Part shown: in pieces, positions 1-6,868 of the stretch
Layout: the number at the start of each line of letters is the position of its first letter
Numbering within the stretch: the first letter of the stretch is position 1
Assembly (NCBI GenBank): GCA_031288635.1
Contig: JAITQZ010000033.1
Span: forward strand, 1 to 6,868
Direction: 5' to 3'
DNA from: Candidatus Peribacteria bacterium
GTDB lineage: Bacteria > Patescibacteria > JAEDAM01 > Absconditabacterales > Absconditicoccaceae
Length of the DNA stretch: 6,868 bases
The notes under the pieces: generated by a model
Database searches by the model: none
What the model was told of the DNA's origin: nothing
Seen by the model: the letters and a program-made list of their open reading frames with translations, nothing else
Program-made: the position numbers and the translations under genes

Positions 1-12
1 TCATAGAGCCAT
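1..12 (-). CDS. 5' end of a second small ORF of the tandem family (partial, runs off window)
   Basis: On the minus strand, ATG-GCT-CTA-TGA begins at position 12 and leaves the window at position 1. With UGA as glycine it reads Met-Ala-Leu-Gly and stays open. The first three codons, and about 100 bp upstream of them, match the start of the small ORF at 186-323. This is the only reason to call it; the rest of the protein is not visible. Confidence 0.3.
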   Translation of the reverse strand: MAL

Positions 13-115
13 AATTTTTTTTAGGTGTTGTCATGTGGTTATAGGTATAAGAGATAAAGGGTTAGTTATTTCTATCTAATCCCTTTTCTATTTACACACT
101 TTTTTTTATGTTCTC
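4..115 (-). repeat. Long direct repeat, copy 1 (leader/promoter block of a small ORF)
   Basis: This 112-bp block recurs at 315-425 with four substitutions and a one-base difference in a T-run. On the minus strand it ends in the start codons of a small ORF, so it looks like a duplicated promoter and 5' region. It contains an inverted repeat, AAAGGGTTAG facing CTAATCCCTTT (about 57-66 and 76-86), followed on the plus strand by T-rich sequence. That hairpin could be a terminator, or an operator just upstream of the minus-strand -10. The -10 candidate in this copy is TATAAC (minus strand of 38-43). Confidence 0.8.
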
Positions 116-185
116 CAAAAATTAGATTTCCTTCATTATCATTCAGTCTATCTATATTATTCCCTAATATTCTATTTACACAAAA

Positions 186-323
186 CTATTTACGTTCCCT
201 CTTTTTTTTATTTTCATATCCTTGCATTATCTTTACTTTTCATCTCACACCAAATGCCCATCAAACCACAATCCATCTCCTCCACAACCACCACAGCTTT
301 TTTTTAAGACAACGTAGAGCCAT
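186..323 (-). CDS. Small Trp-rich basic protein, possibly membrane-active (hypothetical)
   Basis: This minus-strand ORF of 45 residues runs from ATG (323-321) to TAG (188-186). It is open only if its two UGA codons (263-261 and 242-240) are glycine. After an MALRCLKKK start comes a short aromatic/hydrophobic stretch, LWWLWRRWIVVGWAFGV (residues 10-26), with five TGG tryptophans, then a Lys/Arg-rich tail ending KKKRERK. That resembles a small membrane-active or nucleic-acid-binding peptide, but I recognise no family. The plus strand is very G-poor here, as expected if the coding strand is the minus strand. The ATG sits directly at the end of a conserved 111-bp block that also precedes another ORF start at position 12, which supports translation from this start. 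There is no Shine-Dalgarno sequence. It could still be a chance ORF beside a non-coding repeat. Confidence 0.45.
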
Positions 324-425
324 AATTTTTTTTAGGTGTTGTCATGTGATTATAGGTATAAGAGATAAAGGGTTGGTTATTTCTATCTAATCCCATTCCT
401 ATTTACACACTTTTTTTATGTTCTC
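315..425 (-). repeat. Long direct repeat, copy 2 (leader/promoter block)
   Basis: This is the second copy of the block at 4-115, with the start-to-start distance 311 bp. Substitutions relative to copy 1 lie at 349, 375, 395 and 398, and one T is missing from the run at 411-417. The change at 349 turns the minus-strand -10 candidate from TATAAC into TATAAT. The block ends, on the minus strand, with ATGGCTCTA, the first codons of the ORF at 186-323. The hairpin of copy 1 is partly preserved: GGGTTGG facing CTAATCCC, with one G-U pair. Confidence 0.8.
349..354 (-). promoter_or_regulatory. Candidate -10 box for the small minus-strand ORF
   Basis: The minus strand reads TATAAT here, 25 nt before the ATG at 323, which would give a leader of roughly 18 nt. 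No good -35 lies 16-18 nt upstream. The element is inside the duplicated block, and copy 1 has TATAAC at the same place. Confidence 0.3.
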
Positions 426-782
426 TAATAAATTGTCACTATCTTGACTTACTCTTATTTAGAAATTGTTTGCGGAACTCCTATATAACTACTCTATAGT
501 TCTCTATTTCGAGAGTTGAGGTATTTCACTACTTCAATAAAGAACATAAAATATAAAATAGCGTGTACGTCTCCAGTATGTGCTTTTGTCGTTAATCACT
601 GCAATATTTGTAATGATAAAATATATCTGAAGACTTGTAATTTGAGAGAGTTTTCATATAATTCAAGTTGCCAGAATTTTTGGAAATCCGAACCTCGAAA
701 ACCATCCTACTACTCATTAGAAAAATAATATTCAAAGGATTTACAACGGTCAGATTTATTTTATATCTATTATTTTTCAGAA
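426..782. other. Intergenic region between the repeat array and hsdM; no convincing gene
   Basis: I see no gene with recognisable content in these 357 bases on either strand, even with UGA read as glycine. A plus-strand frame open from about 489 to 728 has no ATG or ribosome binding site and gives a Cys-containing sequence that resembles nothing I know. Short inverted repeats occur at 486-500 (AACTA/TAGTT) and around 476-517 (AACTC/GAGTT). The region separates the leftward small ORFs from the rightward operon, so it probably holds the operon promoter. Confidence 0.5.
740..767 (+). promoter_or_regulatory. Possible hsdM promoter
   Basis: TTTACA (740-745) and TATATC (762-767) are separated by 16 bp and end 15 bp before the hsdM ATG. 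Transcription would start very close to the ATG, leaving almost no leader. That would fit the absence of a Shine-Dalgarno sequence before this gene. The region is AT-rich, so such matches arise easily by chance. Confidence 0.25.
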
Positions 783-2297
783 ATGCAAAAAACTTCTACC
801 AAAGAAACGAGCTTTGAAGATCAGCTTTTTAAGTCTGCTGACAAATTGAGAAAAAATATAGATGCCGCAGAATACAAACATGTCGTACTTTGACTAGTTT
901 TTCTTAAATATATTGGTGATGCTTTCCAGATTTTACACGACCAACTTTCCACTGATGCATTAGCAGATCCAGAAGATAGAGATGAATATCTTGCCGAAAA
1001 TGTTTTTTTTGTCCCTGAAGAAGCAAGACGAACCAATCTCCATCAAAAAGCGAAACTTCCCACCATCGGACAAGATGTAGATAGAGCGATGGAAGCATTA
1101 GAAAAAGAAAATCCTGACTTAAAAGGAGTTTTACCGAAAGTTTTTGGAAAATCGAATTTGGATACTACCGCACTTGGTGGATTGATTGATTTGATTTCTA
1201 ATATGGACATCCAAGCTTTAGGAGAAAACAGTAAAGACCTCTTTGGTCGTGTATATGAATATTTTCTCGGACAGTTTGCAAATGCTGAAGGAAAGAAAGG
1301 AGGAGAGTTTTATACTCCCAAAGGTATTGTACAACTCATGGTAGAAATGATAGAACCCTATAAAGGAAGAATTTATGATCCTGCCTGTGGAACGTGAGGA
1401 ATGTTTATCATGAGTGAAAAATTCGTAGAAAAACATCATGGAAACATCAAAGACATTAGCATTTACGGACAAGAGTCTAATCAGACTACTCGAAGACTTT
1501 TCAAAATGAACCTTGCTATCCGCCATATCAACTCAACATTTGTCGCTTGGAATAATGAAGGAAGTTTCCTTAAAGATGCTCACCCAGACCTGAAAGCAGA
1601 TTTTGTGCTTGCAAATCCCCCGTTCAATCAATCCGAGTGGGGACAAGAACATCTCATAGATGATCCGAGACGAAAATATGGACTCCCTCCAGCAGGAAAC
1701 GCCAATTTTGCACGAATACAACATATGCTGTATCATCTCGCACCTCACGGAGTAATGGCAACCGTACTCGCTAATGGTTCGCTTTCTTCCAATACCAGTG
1801 GAGAAGGAGAAATCAGAAAAAAGTTGATTGAAAATGACCTCGTGGACTGTATCGTAGCTCTGCCTGCTCAACTCTTTTTCAATACCCAAATCCCTGCCTG
1901 TATTTGGTTTCTCAGGAGAGAAAAGACAGCCAGAAAAGGAGAAATTCTTTTCATTGATGCAAGAAATAAAGGAGATATGATTAGTCGTGCACAGAAAGCC
2001 TTATCAGAAGAAGAGATTATGGAATTAGCGGGGATTTACCACAAGTGGAGGAGAAGTGAACACTACGAAGACATTAAAGGGTTTTGTAAATCTGCAAGTT
2101 TTGAGGAAGTGAAGAAAAATGATTTTGTATTGACTCCGTGAAGATATGTTGGGGTAGAAGAAGTAGAAGATGACGGGATACCTTTTGAAGAAAAGATGAA
2201 AAGTCTGACTGCGACATTAAGTGAACAGATGAAGAAGGAGGGAGAGATGAATGAGGAGATTAAGCATCAGTTGGGAAAGATTGGTTTTAGCTTGTAA
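783..2297 (+). CDS. hsdM: Type I restriction-modification DNA methyltransferase subunit (N6-adenine)
   Basis: HsdM binds AdoMet and, with HsdS, methylates adenine in the target sequence recognised by HsdS. The 504-residue protein has the usual family length. The N-terminal helical domain covers about residues 1-150. AdoMet motif I, DPACGTGGMF, is at 199-208 and catalytic motif IV, NPPF, at 278-281. The C-terminal part has the family's LTPGRYVG signature, although its Gly is encoded by UGA. In-frame UGA codons at 891, 1395 and 2139 encode residues 37, 205 and 453, all at positions where the family has Gly. CGA codons at 1029, 1491, 1671 and 1713 fall where the family has Trp (VPEEAR-W, TT-W-RL, DPR-W-KYG, NFA-W-IQH). 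The ATG at 783 gives a normal N-terminus but has no Shine-Dalgarno. The TAA overlaps the next gene's ATG by one base. Only 3 of 38 Gly codons are UGA. Confidence 0.95.
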
Positions 2298-4534
2298 TGA
2301 TGAAGATCATGGAAATAGATTTATCCAACTATTACGAGAATGATTGCAAATTCGCTGAAAATAGCAAAAAATTTAGTCTTTCTAAGAAAATAAATTTCAT
2401 ATTTGGTAAAAATGGTACGGGTAAAAGTACCATTAAAGAAGCAATTAGAAATAAGTATGGTGAAGAGTATAATGTCTGTATTTTTGAAGGTTATGAATGA
2501 GTTGTTGGAGAAAATCATAGATTAGATGCCATTGCTTTGGGAAGAGAAAACGCTGAAATACAAAAAAAAATTGAAGAAGTTGATAAAGAAATAGATGATA
2601 TTAAAAAAGAAATAGATGAACCAACAGATGAAAGTAAAAACCTTTTCACCAAAAACAAAAAGACAAATGAAGACTACAAAGCCCAAGAAGATAAGATTGA
2701 AAATTTTTATACTCAATCAGCATCCAAAATTAAAAATCAAACCAATCCGCAAATTGCAAAAACCAATTATGATAAAACTTATTTCAAATGAGAAATTGAA
2801 AATGCAAAATTTCTTTCTGATGAAGAAATGAAAAGGCACAAAGCAACAATGAGAGCAGAACAAAAGAAGGCTGTAAATGCAATTCCGTTTCCTGATATTG
2901 ATTTGGCTGAACAATTAAAAATTACAAATGAAATCTTGATAAAGAAAGTAGAACAACAACAAATCATATCTGAACTACAAAACAGTCCAAGTAAACAAAA
3001 TTTTGCTAGAGAGGGACTAAAAATACATGAACATAAAGATGGTGAAAAATGTGGTTTTTGTGGAAATGAAATCAGTGAAGAACGTTGGATATTGCTTGAA
3101 AAATATTTTAATGAGGAGGTGAAAAATTTTGAAGATACCATTAAGACCGTTATTGATAAACTAGATGAGAAAAATTCAACCTTAGATAATATGCCAGAAA
3201 TAGATGAACGTCTGTTTTACGAACAATTCTCAGAGAAAATAAAATCATTAACCTCTCAAATAAAAAATATCAAGAATGATTACAAAACATTTCTCAATTC
3301 ATTAAAAACCGCTTTGGAAGAGAAAAAAAGAGAAATTTTTTCTGCTTCTACTGAACTAACCTTTTCTATTCCACAAAACTTTGATGTTGTGAAGAATGAA
3401 TACGAGAAAATCGTTGATGAAAACAATATTTTTTCCCAAAATTTACAAACAGAGCAAGAAAATGCCAAAAACACTCTTCGCCTTCATGAAGTAAAAGTAG
3501 CATTGGAGGAGTTCAAATATGACGTTGAGAAAAACACACTTGATAAGTTAGAAAGTCAAAAAAATGAAACACAAAAAGAATTAAATGAGAAAAAGCAAGA
3601 ATCAGAAATAAAGAAAACAGTAAAAAAAGGGCTGATAGACCAGACAAAAGATAGAAGTAAACTTGCCATAGAAATCAATAATTTATTGAAAACTATGGGG
3701 GTCTTATCTTTTTCGTTAGAACTTGTCTCTGATAGTGAAGGGCAAAAGGGGCAATACCAAATCAAGGGACATAATAATGATATTAGAACGATAGATAAAT
3801 TGAGTAAAGGAGAAAAAAATATTATTGCTTTCCTTTATTTTATTTTTTCTATTGAAGCACCAACTGAGGATACTAAACCAAAGTTGATTATATTTGATGA
3901 CCCGATGACGAGTAATGATGATACGATGCAGTATTTAATGACAGAACAAATCCGCAAATTATATAGTAAAATCAACAATTCTAAGAGTGATTATTTTATT
4001 CTTTTGACACATAATTTGCATTTTTATCTCAATGTTCGTCCAAACTATAATGAGGTGGAAGAAAATAAAATATTACAAAGAAACAGAAGACAGTCTGATG
4101 ATAGTCAGAAAGAGAAGACATTTTACGAAAAAAGCGGGTACTTTATATTAAAAAATAATGGGACCCATACCACCATACAATCTATCGAGGATTACAACAT
4201 GGATCATAAAACCAGTTATTCGGCACTATGGAATGATTTAATATTTTTGTACAACAACGATAAACCAGTATCTATGCTAAATAATTGTAGAAGAATTATT
4301 GAAACTTATATAAAATTTAATAAAATAGAAAAAAAATTTTATGAAAATAACGAATTTGTTCGTAAATTATTCAATGTAAATTCTCATAGTATTGATGATC
4401 AAGAGAATGAATTAAACGGTAAGACGAAAGACGAAATTAAAATCATGCTTCATGAGGCATTCAAGAAAAACAATGTAGAAGACCATTTCAAGGCTTATTG
4501 GATTTTATCATCTAACCAAGAAGACGATGAGTAA
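2297..4534 (+). CDS. rloC: RloC/PrrC-like anticodon nuclease with ABC-type ATPase (AAA_13)
   Basis: Proteins of this family cleave tRNA at the anticodon when activated, shutting down translation, and an SMC/Rad50-like ATPase controls the nuclease. Visible features of the 745-residue product: Walker A GKNGTGKS (37-44); long charged coiled coils (about 80-200 and 260-460); a CxxC pair (CGFC, 252-255) like the RloC zinc hook; ABC signature LSKGE (502-506); Walker B LIIFDD (530-535); and the switch histidine in LLTHN (572). The C-terminal domain has R-x3-E (R665, E669) and His697 in NSHS, matching the Arg-Glu-His catalytic triad known from PrrC. The length and hook favour RloC over the roughly 400-residue PrrC. 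UGA codons at 2498 and 2789 are Gly68 and Gly165; without recoding the protein would end just after Walker A. No CGA is used. The gene overlaps hsdM by 1 nt and hsdS by 8 nt, implying coupled expression. The tRNA target is unknown. Confidence 0.82.
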
Positions 4535-5723
4535 AATTAACTGATGGCAAAAAGCAATATTATGAGAGATAATTACCTTAGTAGGATGATGAACTCCTAA
4601 AACTACTGAAAAAGACTATTGGAATGGAAATATTCCTTGGCTTTCAGTTATTGATTTTAATTCTGATAATAGGCGAGTTTCTAAAACTGAAAAAACAATT
4701 ACTCAAAAATGATTACAAAATAGCTCAACAAAATTACTAAACAAATGAGATTTAATTATATCAGCAAGATGAACTGTTGGTGTATTGGCACAACTGAAAA
4801 TCCCAATGGCATTTAATCAATCTTGTTATGGGATACAGGAAATACAATGACTTTCAGATATTAACTTTTTATATTATCTCATCAAAGCTGAATTAAATCA
4901 AATTTCAAAGAATGTTCATTGAGCAGTGTTTGATACTATTACGAGAGACACCTTTAATTCTATTAAAACTAAAATTCCCCCCCTTCCTGAACAGCAAGCC
5001 ATCGCCTCGCTTCTCTCTAGCTTCGATGATAAAATCGAACTTCTCCGTGCAGAGAATCAGACCTTAGAAGTGATAGGACAAACAATCTTCAAGGAGCGAT
5101 TCGGAAAGTATCAAGTGGGAGATGAATTGCCAGAAGGACGAAGAGTTGGGAAGATAAAAGATTTTGTAGATATTCTAAGTGGGTTTGCGTTTAAGAGTAG
5201 TGATTTTGTAAAAAATGGAACGTTTCGTTTGATTACTATTGCCAATGTACAAGATGGAGCTTTTATAGAGACAACCAAAGATGGATTAGATATCATCCCA
5301 GATAAAATGCCTGAATATTGCAAACTAAAGACAAGTGATATCTTGCTCTCACTGACAGGAAATGTTGGTAGAATTTGTCTTGTAATAGGAAAAAATTATC
5401 TTCTTAATCAAAGAGTTGCAAAATTACAACCAAAAGTTGAGCAAGATTTTGCTTATGTATATCTATTCTTTAGACAACCAGCTATAGTAAATTTGCTTGA
5501 AAATATCTCATCAGGGACAGCTCAACAAAATTTAAGTCCAATCAATACAGCAAATCTAGAAACAGTTATCCCGTCAAAAGAAATATTTGATAAATTTTGA
5601 AAAATAGCTAATTCACTGATATTGAAAATACTAGATAATCTGATACAAATTACAATCCTTTCAAAAACTCGTGATACTTTGCTGCCAAAGTTGATGAGTG
5701 GAGAAGTGAGGGTGAAGTTTTAG
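4527..5723 (+). CDS. hsdS: Type I restriction-modification specificity subunit
   Basis: HsdS gives the methyltransferase its DNA sequence specificity through two target recognition domains (TRDs) separated by helical spacers that bind HsdM. The 398-residue protein has the classical order: TRD1 (about 5-145), opening with a GGGTPKT signature; a central conserved region (150-192) with IPPLPEQQ, DDKIELL and IFKE-W-F; TRD2 (about 205-355), opening with LPEG-W-RVG; and a C-terminal helical repeat ending LLPKLMSGEV. Ten UGA codons are in frame: 4542, 4563, 4587, 4590, 4710, 4746, 4770, 4848, 4920 and 5598. The pair at 4587/4590 is tandem. Nine lie in the first third, where they supply 9 of 13 glycines; only 1 of the remaining 15 glycines is UGA. 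CGA at 4674, 5097 and 5139 fits Trp or another aromatic. The ATG lies inside the end of the preceding gene (ATGAGTAA overlap). TAG ends the gene, and no terminator is evident after it. Confidence 0.94.
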
Positions 5724-5820
5724 GACAAAAGAAATTGACTATCAAAACTTTGTTTAGATATTGTTTGATCGGAAGGAATTGGGATGTTAGTAGTATATTC
5801 AAAATTTTACAAAATATAAG

Positions 5821-5840
5821 AAGATTTGTTAAAAAATCTT
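5821..5840. repeat. Short inverted repeat upstream of the antitoxin promoter
   Basis: AAGATTT (5821-5827) and AAATCTT (5834-5840) form a perfect 7-bp inverted repeat with a 6-nt spacer. It lies 11 bp upstream of the -35 candidate at 5851. It has no T-tract, so it is a poor terminator. It may be a regulatory site or chance in AT-rich DNA. The rest of 5724-5850 shows no gene. Confidence 0.3.
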
Positions 5841-5850
5841 TACAAAAAGT

Positions 5851-5878
5851 TTGCATTTTGTTTGAAAATCTGTATACT
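5851..5878 (+). promoter_or_regulatory. Promoter of the HTH-Panacea gene
   Basis: TTGCAT (5851-5856) and TATACT (5873-5878) are 16 bp apart and resemble a housekeeping promoter. Transcription would start near 5885, giving a leader of about 35 nt before the ATG at 5920. The -10 lies inside the palindrome at 5871-5891. Confidence 0.5.
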
Positions 5879-5891
5879 GTATGTGTATACA
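5871..5891. promoter_or_regulatory. Palindromic operator, probably for autoregulation
   Basis: A perfect inverted repeat, TGTATAC-N7-GTATACA, covers the -10 box and predicted start site of the downstream gene. Such dyads are typical XRE-repressor operators, and the first gene downstream encodes an XRE HTH protein. Autorepression is therefore the likely role, but it is inferred from position and symmetry only. Confidence 0.5.
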
Positions 5892-5919
5892 TTACTATTT
5901 ACCCTCTTTCTTCTCCATA

Positions 5920-6669
5920 ATGACTACAAAAAGCCTTTGAGAAAAAATCAAAAGACTTAGAAATTCTGCTCATATGTCTCAGGAAGAATTTGCCAAAATA
6001 TTATGAATAAGCAGAGTAACTTTTGCACAAATCGAACAATGAGAAAGAGATTTGAAACATTCTGAATTAGTAATTATCGCCAATAACTTTGAGATGAGTA
6101 TCAATGACCTAATTTCTGATGAACATATTGAACCCACCCCACCCCAAGCAGGGAAAAATCAGCCTTTTTATAAATTTAAACAAGCATTTCTTTACCTCCT
6201 TAATAAGGTTGCCCAAAAACCGAATGTAGGAAAAACAGTTATCAATAAATTGCTTTATTTTGCAGATTTTAATCACTATGAAAAATACTGGGAAAGTATC
6301 ACGGGAGTTGATTATATCAAAATGCCGAGATGACCCGTTCCTCAAATAATGGATATGGTCATTGCTCAAATGGAAAAAGACCATCAGATACAACAACTCG
6401 ATGTTCCCTATTTTCAGTATATGCAACAAAAAATCATCCCATTAGTTGAACCTGATTTGGAGGTACTGAATGGGAAAGAACTTGCAGAATTGGAGTATGT
6501 AGTAAATAAATATGGAGACTGGAATGCTGATAAAATTAGTGAACGATCCCACGGAGATATGCCTTGGAAAGCTACTAAAAAAGAGGGAGATATCATTCAT
6601 TATGACTTTGCTATGTATCGTAATGGACTTTATTCGGTAACTGTAGGACGAGACGATGACGAAAATTAG
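5920..6669 (+). CDS. XRE-family HTH / Panacea (SocA, DUF4065) antitoxin-like protein
   Basis: This is probably the antitoxin and autorepressor of a type II toxin-antitoxin pair; Panacea-domain (PanA) antitoxins neutralise many unrelated toxins. The 249-residue product starts with an XRE helix-turn-helix (about 5-60), with MSQEEFAKILGISRVTFAQI (19-38) clearly the HTH core. A linker rich in Pro and Gln follows, then a Panacea domain (about 85-245) with KLLYFADF near 111-118, ITG-DYI, RGPVP and SHGDMPW. UGA codons at 5938, 6004, 6040 and 6331 encode Gly7, 29, 41 and 138; the first three are the usual Gly of the HTH fold. CGA at 6544 and 6649 would be Trp209 and Trp244; the first is plausible, the second untested. 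The leader before the ATG is pyrimidine-rich with no Shine-Dalgarno. The 3' end overlaps the next ORF by 14 nt, as in toxin-antitoxin pairs. Whether it controls the neighbouring RM/nuclease operon is unknown. Confidence 0.85.
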
Positions 6670-6760
6670 TTTACTTACTTGTCCTGAATTTGATAAAGAG
6701 CTTAGCCGTTTATGTAGTAAATATCCTTCTTTGGAGAAAGAATTTGAAGATGTAAACTAA
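6656..6760 (+). pseudogene. Truncated RelE/ParE-like toxin stub (34 codons)
   Basis: This ORF overlaps the antitoxin-like gene by 14 nt and ends at TAA only 2 nt before a terminator stem. Its pattern (CPEFDKELSRLCSKYPSLEKEFED) matches the first helix region of RelE/ParE-type toxins, which usually read x-FxKxLxxLxxKYPSLxxDL and run to about 90-120 residues. Everything after that, including the catalytic sheet, is missing, and no continuation appears in any frame before the terminator. The best reading is a toxin remnant left by a 3' deletion, with an antitoxin that has lost its partner. A functional mini-protein is possible but less likely. The family match is from memory over a short length. 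Confidence 0.6.
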
Positions 6761-6762
6761 AA

Positions 6763-6796
6763 AAACAGCCCTAAACTTGTGGGGCTGTTTCCTTTT
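6763..6796. terminator. Rho-independent terminator, possibly bidirectional
   Basis: A perfect 9-bp stem, AAACAGCCC (6763-6771) with GGGCTGTTT (6782-6790), encloses a 10-nt loop and is followed by CCTTTT. On the other strand the stem is followed by an unbroken T-run (the A-run at 6759-6765), so it may stop transcription from both sides. It follows the TAA of the toxin stub and closes this operon. Confidence 0.9.
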
Positions 6797-6836
6797 ATCA
6801 ATTTGCATTTTTCTCTACCATTTTCTTTCAAAAAGG

Positions 6837-6868
6837 TAATGATTATACCTGACTAATGGAAATCATTA
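6837..6868. repeat. Inverted repeat at the window edge
   Basis: TAATGATT (6837-6844) and AATCATTA (6861-6868) are perfect complements 16 nt apart. A minus-strand TATAAT (6847-6842) lies within it. It could be an operator at a promoter of a gene outside the window, but the context is cut off. No gene is seen from 6797 to the end. Confidence 0.3.

Follow-up and report, generated by a model that had tools for sequence, protein, structure and literature searches.

The window examined here comprises positions 1 to 6,868 of the forward strand of contig JAITQZ010000033.1, a stretch of 6,868 nucleotides that carries the hsdM and hsdS genes of a type I restriction-modification pair, an ATPase gene of the AAA_13 family between them, and a gene for a protein with HTH_3 and SocA/Panacea domains (hereafter HTH-Panacea). 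In the genes of this window the codon CGA almost certainly stands for tryptophan, as judged from the alignment columns in which it falls. It can be held with high confidence that UGA means glycine and CGA tryptophan in the source bacterium and that this bacterium most likely belongs to the Absconditabacteria (SR1) lineage, for which such a code has been published; taken separately, the assignment of the host to that group is probable. The window thus looks like one more clear case of an already known code and not a new one, and this code is presumably the one numbered NCBI table 37, the number also given in an earlier sequence-only reading of the same DNA.

CGA codons at tryptophan positions

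With UGA read as glycine, the window (GC content 0.324) contains four open genes, all on the + strand:

783..2297, + strand: hsdM, methyltransferase subunit of a type I restriction-modification system; 504 aa; in-frame TGA 3 (read as Gly), CGA 4 (read as Trp), TGG 4
2297..4534, + strand: AAA_13 ATPase gene, between hsdM and hsdS; 745 aa; CGA 0, TGA 2, TGG 3
4527..5723, + strand: hsdS, type I specificity subunit; 398 aa; TGA 10, CGA 3, TGG 3
5920..6669, + strand: gene for the HTH_3 and SocA/Panacea protein; 249 aa; TGA 4, CGA 2, TGG 3

Together these genes have 1,900 codons, stops included, among which CGA occurs in frame nine times and CGG, as the sequence-only reading had already remarked, not at all. 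The other counts are 13 for TGG, 37 for AGA, 10 for CGT, 5 for AGG, 3 for CGC and 19 for UGA; AGA is the main arginine codon (37 of 55), and CGA makes up 9 of the 22 tryptophan codons, or 47 per 10,000 codons. The nine CGA sites, with the residues found in their homologues, are the following:

1029..1031, + strand: HsdM residue 83 (EARW); all 120 homologues have Trp, as does the solved HsdM 3khk
1491..1493, + strand: HsdM residue 237 (TTWRL); 117 of 120 homologues have Trp and 2 have Arg; Trp in 3khk
1671..1673, + strand: HsdM residue 297 (DPRW); all 120 homologues have Trp, as does 3khk
1713..1715, + strand: HsdM residue 311 (NFAWxQH); all 120 homologues have Trp, as does 3khk
4674..4676, + strand: HsdS residue 50; aromatic column, with W 48, Y 34, F 20 and R 4 of 120
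5097..5099, + strand: HsdS residue 191 (FKEWF); W 83, Y 18 and R 12 of 120
5139..5141, + strand: HsdS residue 205 (LPEGW); 115 of 120 homologues have Trp
6544..6546, + strand: HTH-Panacea residue 209; R 13, W 8, Y 7 and F 3 of 34; profile score W 2.95, R 1.02 bits
6649..6651, + strand: HTH-Panacea residue 244; variable column with K 10, D 6, V 4 and E 4; W -1.13, R 0.25 bits

The sequence-only reading had located nine CGA codons in these three genes, and all of them were found in frame where it had put them. Tabulating the consensus residue at each CGA column, a check that had been proposed along with it, gave tryptophan as the clear majority letter at six of the nine columns and as the commonest letter in the aromatic column at 4674. 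For hsdM, where three of the four sites lie inside the N6_Mtase domain, the proposed tryptophan positions are those of 117 to 120 of the 120 homologues, and in hsdS the sites at 5097 and 5139 fit tryptophan and that at 4674 an aromatic residue, as had been suggested. The extension of the claim to the HTH-Panacea gene holds in part, with 6544 leaning towards tryptophan by profile score and 6649 carrying no signal. Arginine, which was looked for as a dominating letter at the CGA columns, was not seen as such, save that it is the commonest letter (13/34) at 6544.

The meaning of the codons was estimated by a Codetta-like test, in which the log-odds of each residue are summed for every codon over its aligned columns, for the 60 codons that are present. 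The profiles were built without the query, whose CGA and TGA positions were replaced by X in the alignments; start codons were skipped, as were columns in which fewer than half of the rows have a residue. The homologues aligned were 120 listed of 7,999 scored for hsdM, 120 of 7,996 for hsdS and all 34 of 34 for HTH-Panacea, the AAA_13 gene, which has no CGA, being left outside the test. The residue assigned by NCBI table 25 was returned for 59 of the 60 codons, the sole departure being CGA, for which the nine columns give +35.4 bits for Trp, +9.0 for Tyr and -3.1 for Arg. Split by gene, the scores for Trp and Arg are 19.8 and -3.5 bits in hsdM, 13.7 and -0.9 in hsdS, and 1.8 and 1.3 in HTH-Panacea. 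The hsdM homologues had been retrieved with a query carrying Trp at CGA (P0001), which slightly favours Trp, and the searches for hsdS and HTH-Panacea used Arg at CGA; in hsdS, Trp still wins despite the arginine in the query.

In the same test UGA resolves to glycine (17 columns, +35.1 bits, runner-up 8.6), and arginine is returned for AGA (24 columns, +51.2 bits), CGT (6 columns, +15.1), AGG (4 columns, +9.6) and CGC (+3.0, from one column). The earlier statement that conserved arginine positions use AGA, CGT or CGC is borne out by these columns, with AGG to be added to the list. In the Pfam profiles, which were made by others, every matched domain that holds a CGA site gains when CGA is read as Trp instead of Arg, the scores rising from 367.5 to 381.2 for N6_Mtase (PF02384), from 74.8 to 84.5 for HsdM_N (PF12161), from 22.2 to 23.3 for MTS, from 147.2 to 153.8 for Methylase_S and, by just 1.7 bits, from 72.3 to 74.0 for SocA_Panacea.

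Controls and the split CGN box

As a standard-code control, the hsdM profile was applied to 24 hsdM genes (24 of 80 loci, namely L001-L025 minus L020, which has an in-frame TAG in the matched stretch), whose proteins may also sit in the profile; it inferred 61 of 61 codons correctly, and the 81 CGA codons of these genes gave +143.3 bits for Arg against -110.1 for Trp. Within the window, none of the 35 non-CGA positions of the arginine family favours Trp over Arg, and when nine of the 44 Arg-family positions were drawn at random 1,000,000 times, the observed Trp-minus-Arg score was never reached. The probability that four random hsdM residues would all land on its eight Trp columns is 2.6e-8.

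The CGN box is split in the window, with CGU and CGC at arginine columns and CGA at tryptophan columns. The change from TGG to CGA takes two transitions, most simply by way of CGG, and in HsdM four of the eight columns with conserved Trp hold CGA, which together suggests that CGA is an established tryptophan codon in the host.

Relation to published codes

A code with UGA for glycine and CGA and CGG for tryptophan was predicted for the Absconditabacteria by Shulgina and Eddy in 2021, with tRNAs consistent with tryptophan identity (PMC8629427). The pair of reassignments named in the sequence-only reading agrees with that prediction. The tRNAs reported for the Absconditabacteria include one with a GCG anticodon for CGU and CGC, none with ACG, and hence no inosine, and those with UCG and CCG for CGA and CGG (PMC8629427). 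By analogy with that set, CGA in the present host would be decoded by a tRNA with a UCG anticodon and tryptophan identity, charged by tryptophanyl-tRNA synthetase, and CGU and CGC would be read as arginine by a tRNA with a GCG anticodon, with no inosine tRNA reaching CGA. The order of events may have been that low GC first made CGA and CGG rare and that CGA later returned at tryptophan sites. The same code is given without reserve for the Absconditabacterales in a 2026 paper (PMC13092985), and code 25 alone is named in the available portions of other papers on these bacteria (PMC10746230, PMC11452946, PMC13059738). Literature searches, drawing on such partial texts, returned no proteomic test of CGA.

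The window shares with the Absconditabacteria code UGA for glycine, CGA for tryptophan, CGU, CGC, AGA and AGG for arginine, a low GC content and AGA as the main arginine codon, and differs from it in that CGG is absent. Its GC of 0.324 falls inside the range of 0.26-0.38 given for the four reassigned clades (PMC8629427). The ceiling for CGA is put at 37 per 10,000 codons in Pfam alignments (PMC8629427), against 47 in the window, a figure that comes from nine codons and is not restricted to Pfam columns. NCBI table 25 (SR1 and Gracilibacteria) agrees with the window in UGA as glycine and in 59 of 60 codons, but has CGA as arginine where the window columns call for tryptophan. The codes of Anaerococcus and of the RFN20-order Bacilli (Onthovivens) likewise move an arginine CGN codon to tryptophan at low GC, yet there it is CGG that has moved while CGA is still arginine, whereas in the window CGA has moved and UGA is glycine (PMC8629427, PMC13092985).

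Annotation of such DNA with table 25 or table 11 puts arginine where tryptophan belongs, which in HsdM alone means four wrong residues at near-invariant sites. With a single protein supplying four Trp columns that are near-invariant, the window offers a compact case in which the predicted code could be checked by peptides. It also illustrates that restriction-modification genes, which are often mobile between lineages, can carry an altered code.

Alternative explanations

Several observations weigh against CGA as a tryptophan codon in an Absconditabacteria host. At 6544 arginine is the commonest letter of the homologues, and the site merely leans towards tryptophan by profile score; at 6649 tryptophan is not preferred and the column is uninformative. 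Since CGG occurs at 0 of 1,900 codons, the window speaks to the CGA half of the published pair alone. ARAGORN found no tRNA gene in the window, and the decoding of CGA is deduced from alignment columns. In the HsdM gene tree, furthermore, the window stands outside the group of rows that resemble UGA=Gly proteins. The last of these points, along with the absence of CGG, would also suit a host among the Gracilibacteria or in an unplaced sister lineage outside the Absconditabacterales, in which CGA would be tryptophan through the same kind of tRNA change and CGG perhaps lost or unassigned. CGG as tryptophan may indeed reach some Gracilibacteria (PMC8629427), and the nearest rows by path in the HTH-Panacea tree are P0262, P0272, P0245 and the Peribacteria-named P0248. 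Such a host is nevertheless unlikely: the pairing of glycine for UGA with tryptophan for CGA is published for the Absconditabacteria, whereas CGA as tryptophan is not reported for the Gracilibacteria in the available portion of the same paper (PMC8629427), and among the closer HTH-Panacea relatives is P0250 ('Candidatus Abscon...'), a 57% match and the sole relative named as Absconditabacteria. Both the HsdM and the HTH-Panacea tree leave the window unplaced, and restriction genes move between lineages, so that their trees say little on the host.

An unfinished reassignment, in which CGA is decoded ambiguously, in part as tryptophan and in part as arginine, is compatible with 6544 and 6649, which are not tryptophan columns in most homologues, and is of a kind that only experiment can reveal (PMC8629427). 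It seems improbable, given that arginine is common at no CGA column bar the mixed one at 6544 and, with 12 of 120, that at 5097, and that four CGA codons stand where Trp is near-invariant, with three of these sites inside the N6_Mtase domain. That CGA is ordinary arginine, brought to tryptophan columns by gene decay or by chance, is very hard to sustain. The two transitions from TGG to CGA could come from decay, but table 25 leaves all four reading frames open, the 59 other codons stand at their proper columns, the chance figure of 2.6e-8 concerns hsdM alone, and standard-code hsdM genes put CGA at arginine columns; at the level of the alignments this explanation was rejected on the open frames, the permutation and the standard-code control. 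Post-transcriptional C-to-U editing that restores tryptophan codons has a precedent in plant mitochondria, where CGG is edited to UGG. In the window the codon is always CGA, however, and its editing would yield UGA, that is, glycine or a stop and not a tryptophan codon; on this codon logic editing was rejected as the cause, and it can hardly be entertained.

Possible co-occurrence of the two reassignments in relatives

Ten of the 120 HsdM homologues have tryptophan at conserved glycine columns, as is expected of UGA=Gly proteins read with table 4. Arginine at one of eight conserved Trp columns is found in 4 of these 10 rows and in 0 of the 110 others (Fisher 2.6e-5), a contrast that overstates independence, as the rows are related and three of the four belong to one supported group of four. 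It suggests, as far as stored proteins allow, that the reassignments of UGA and of CGA or CGG occur together elsewhere, in proteins that have been stored with arginine. The corresponding comparison in hsdS (12/14 vs 1/106) was set aside, as the 12 are for the most part similar to one another and their arginine at column 191 may be genuine, and that in HTH-Panacea was likewise left unused, the columns picked by script including true arginine columns.

At the 6544 column, the 13 homologues with arginine include P0246 and P0250, the latter being the one with the truncated name 'Candidatus Abscon...', and tryptophan is found in the Peribacteria-named P0248 and seven other homologues. Some of the rows with tryptophan also resemble UGA=Gly proteins (P0257, P0264, P0265, P0268). 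Arginine in this column of public homologues may stem from CGA translated with the wrong table.

Searches of other collections

The HTH-Panacea protein matches 104 of 379 genomes of one phylum (that of G003) at E<=0.001, with 45% identity at best, and among the listed matches with E below 1e-7 there is no in-frame TGA. Two motif patterns with TGA for glycine recognised no UGA=Gly genome among the 379 (1/379 and 0/379 matches), and a genome with GGN in these places would escape such patterns; the single match, L120 (GC 43%), was taken as chance, its frame being full of stops and its surroundings lacking a GTPase context. In a search with the RpoB family, of which the best rows were listed, 367 of the 379 genomes match; 42 of the weaker ones were rechecked and show no internal stop. 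Scans of IMG/VR gave 1 locus with P0003, 13 loci with P0001 and none with P0002, the hsdM genes of the 13 having no in-frame TGA (0/13). A plasmid search returned 71 records of 60-80% identity, none of which covers over 80% of the query, and a phage search 3 records, all under 60% identity.

The restriction-modification locus and its ATPase gene

As a type I restriction-modification pair, hsdM and hsdS are ordinary: their domain families PF12161, PF02384 and PF01420 all score above the cut-off, and the NCBIfam hsdM equivalog TIGR00497 scores 185.6 bits, under its cut-off of 242.75. No hsdR is present among the four genes examined, and the window stops at 6868. Upstream of hsdM lies a direct repeat of 103 nt (copies at 4-106 and 315-417, 96% identical, spacing 311 nt), for which a 30-base exact pattern found no match in IMG/VR. 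The glycine codons of hsdS are distributed unevenly, with 9 TGA and 4 GGN in residues 1-135 and 1 TGA and 14 GGN in residues 136-398 (Fisher p 0.001, with the cut point picked post hoc); the gene may thus be a mosaic whose second half is the newer arrival.

The AAA_13 protein has its best PADLOC match in the candidate defence family PDC-S06 (796.5 bits), and no solved relative was found by sequence at E<=0.001. It carries a Walker A motif, the sequence LSKGE and a single CxxC (at 252), and its C-terminus has R665-X3-E669 followed by H697 (preceded by Ser, at a gap of 27), H719 (at a gap of 49) and H730. RloC is described as having an Arg-X3-Glu-X36-52-His triad and a CXXC zinc hook (PMC2610378), so that by motif positions, on which the comparison is made, the gap of 27 to H697 falls short of the 36-52 of RloC and that of 49 to H719 lies within it. 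As with the rlo genes found in type I loci (PMC2610378), an ABC-type ATPase gene is placed between hsdM and hsdS. These motifs recall the RloC/PrrC anticodon nucleases; should the protein indeed cut tRNAs, its occurrence in a host whose tRNAs are altered would be a point of interest.

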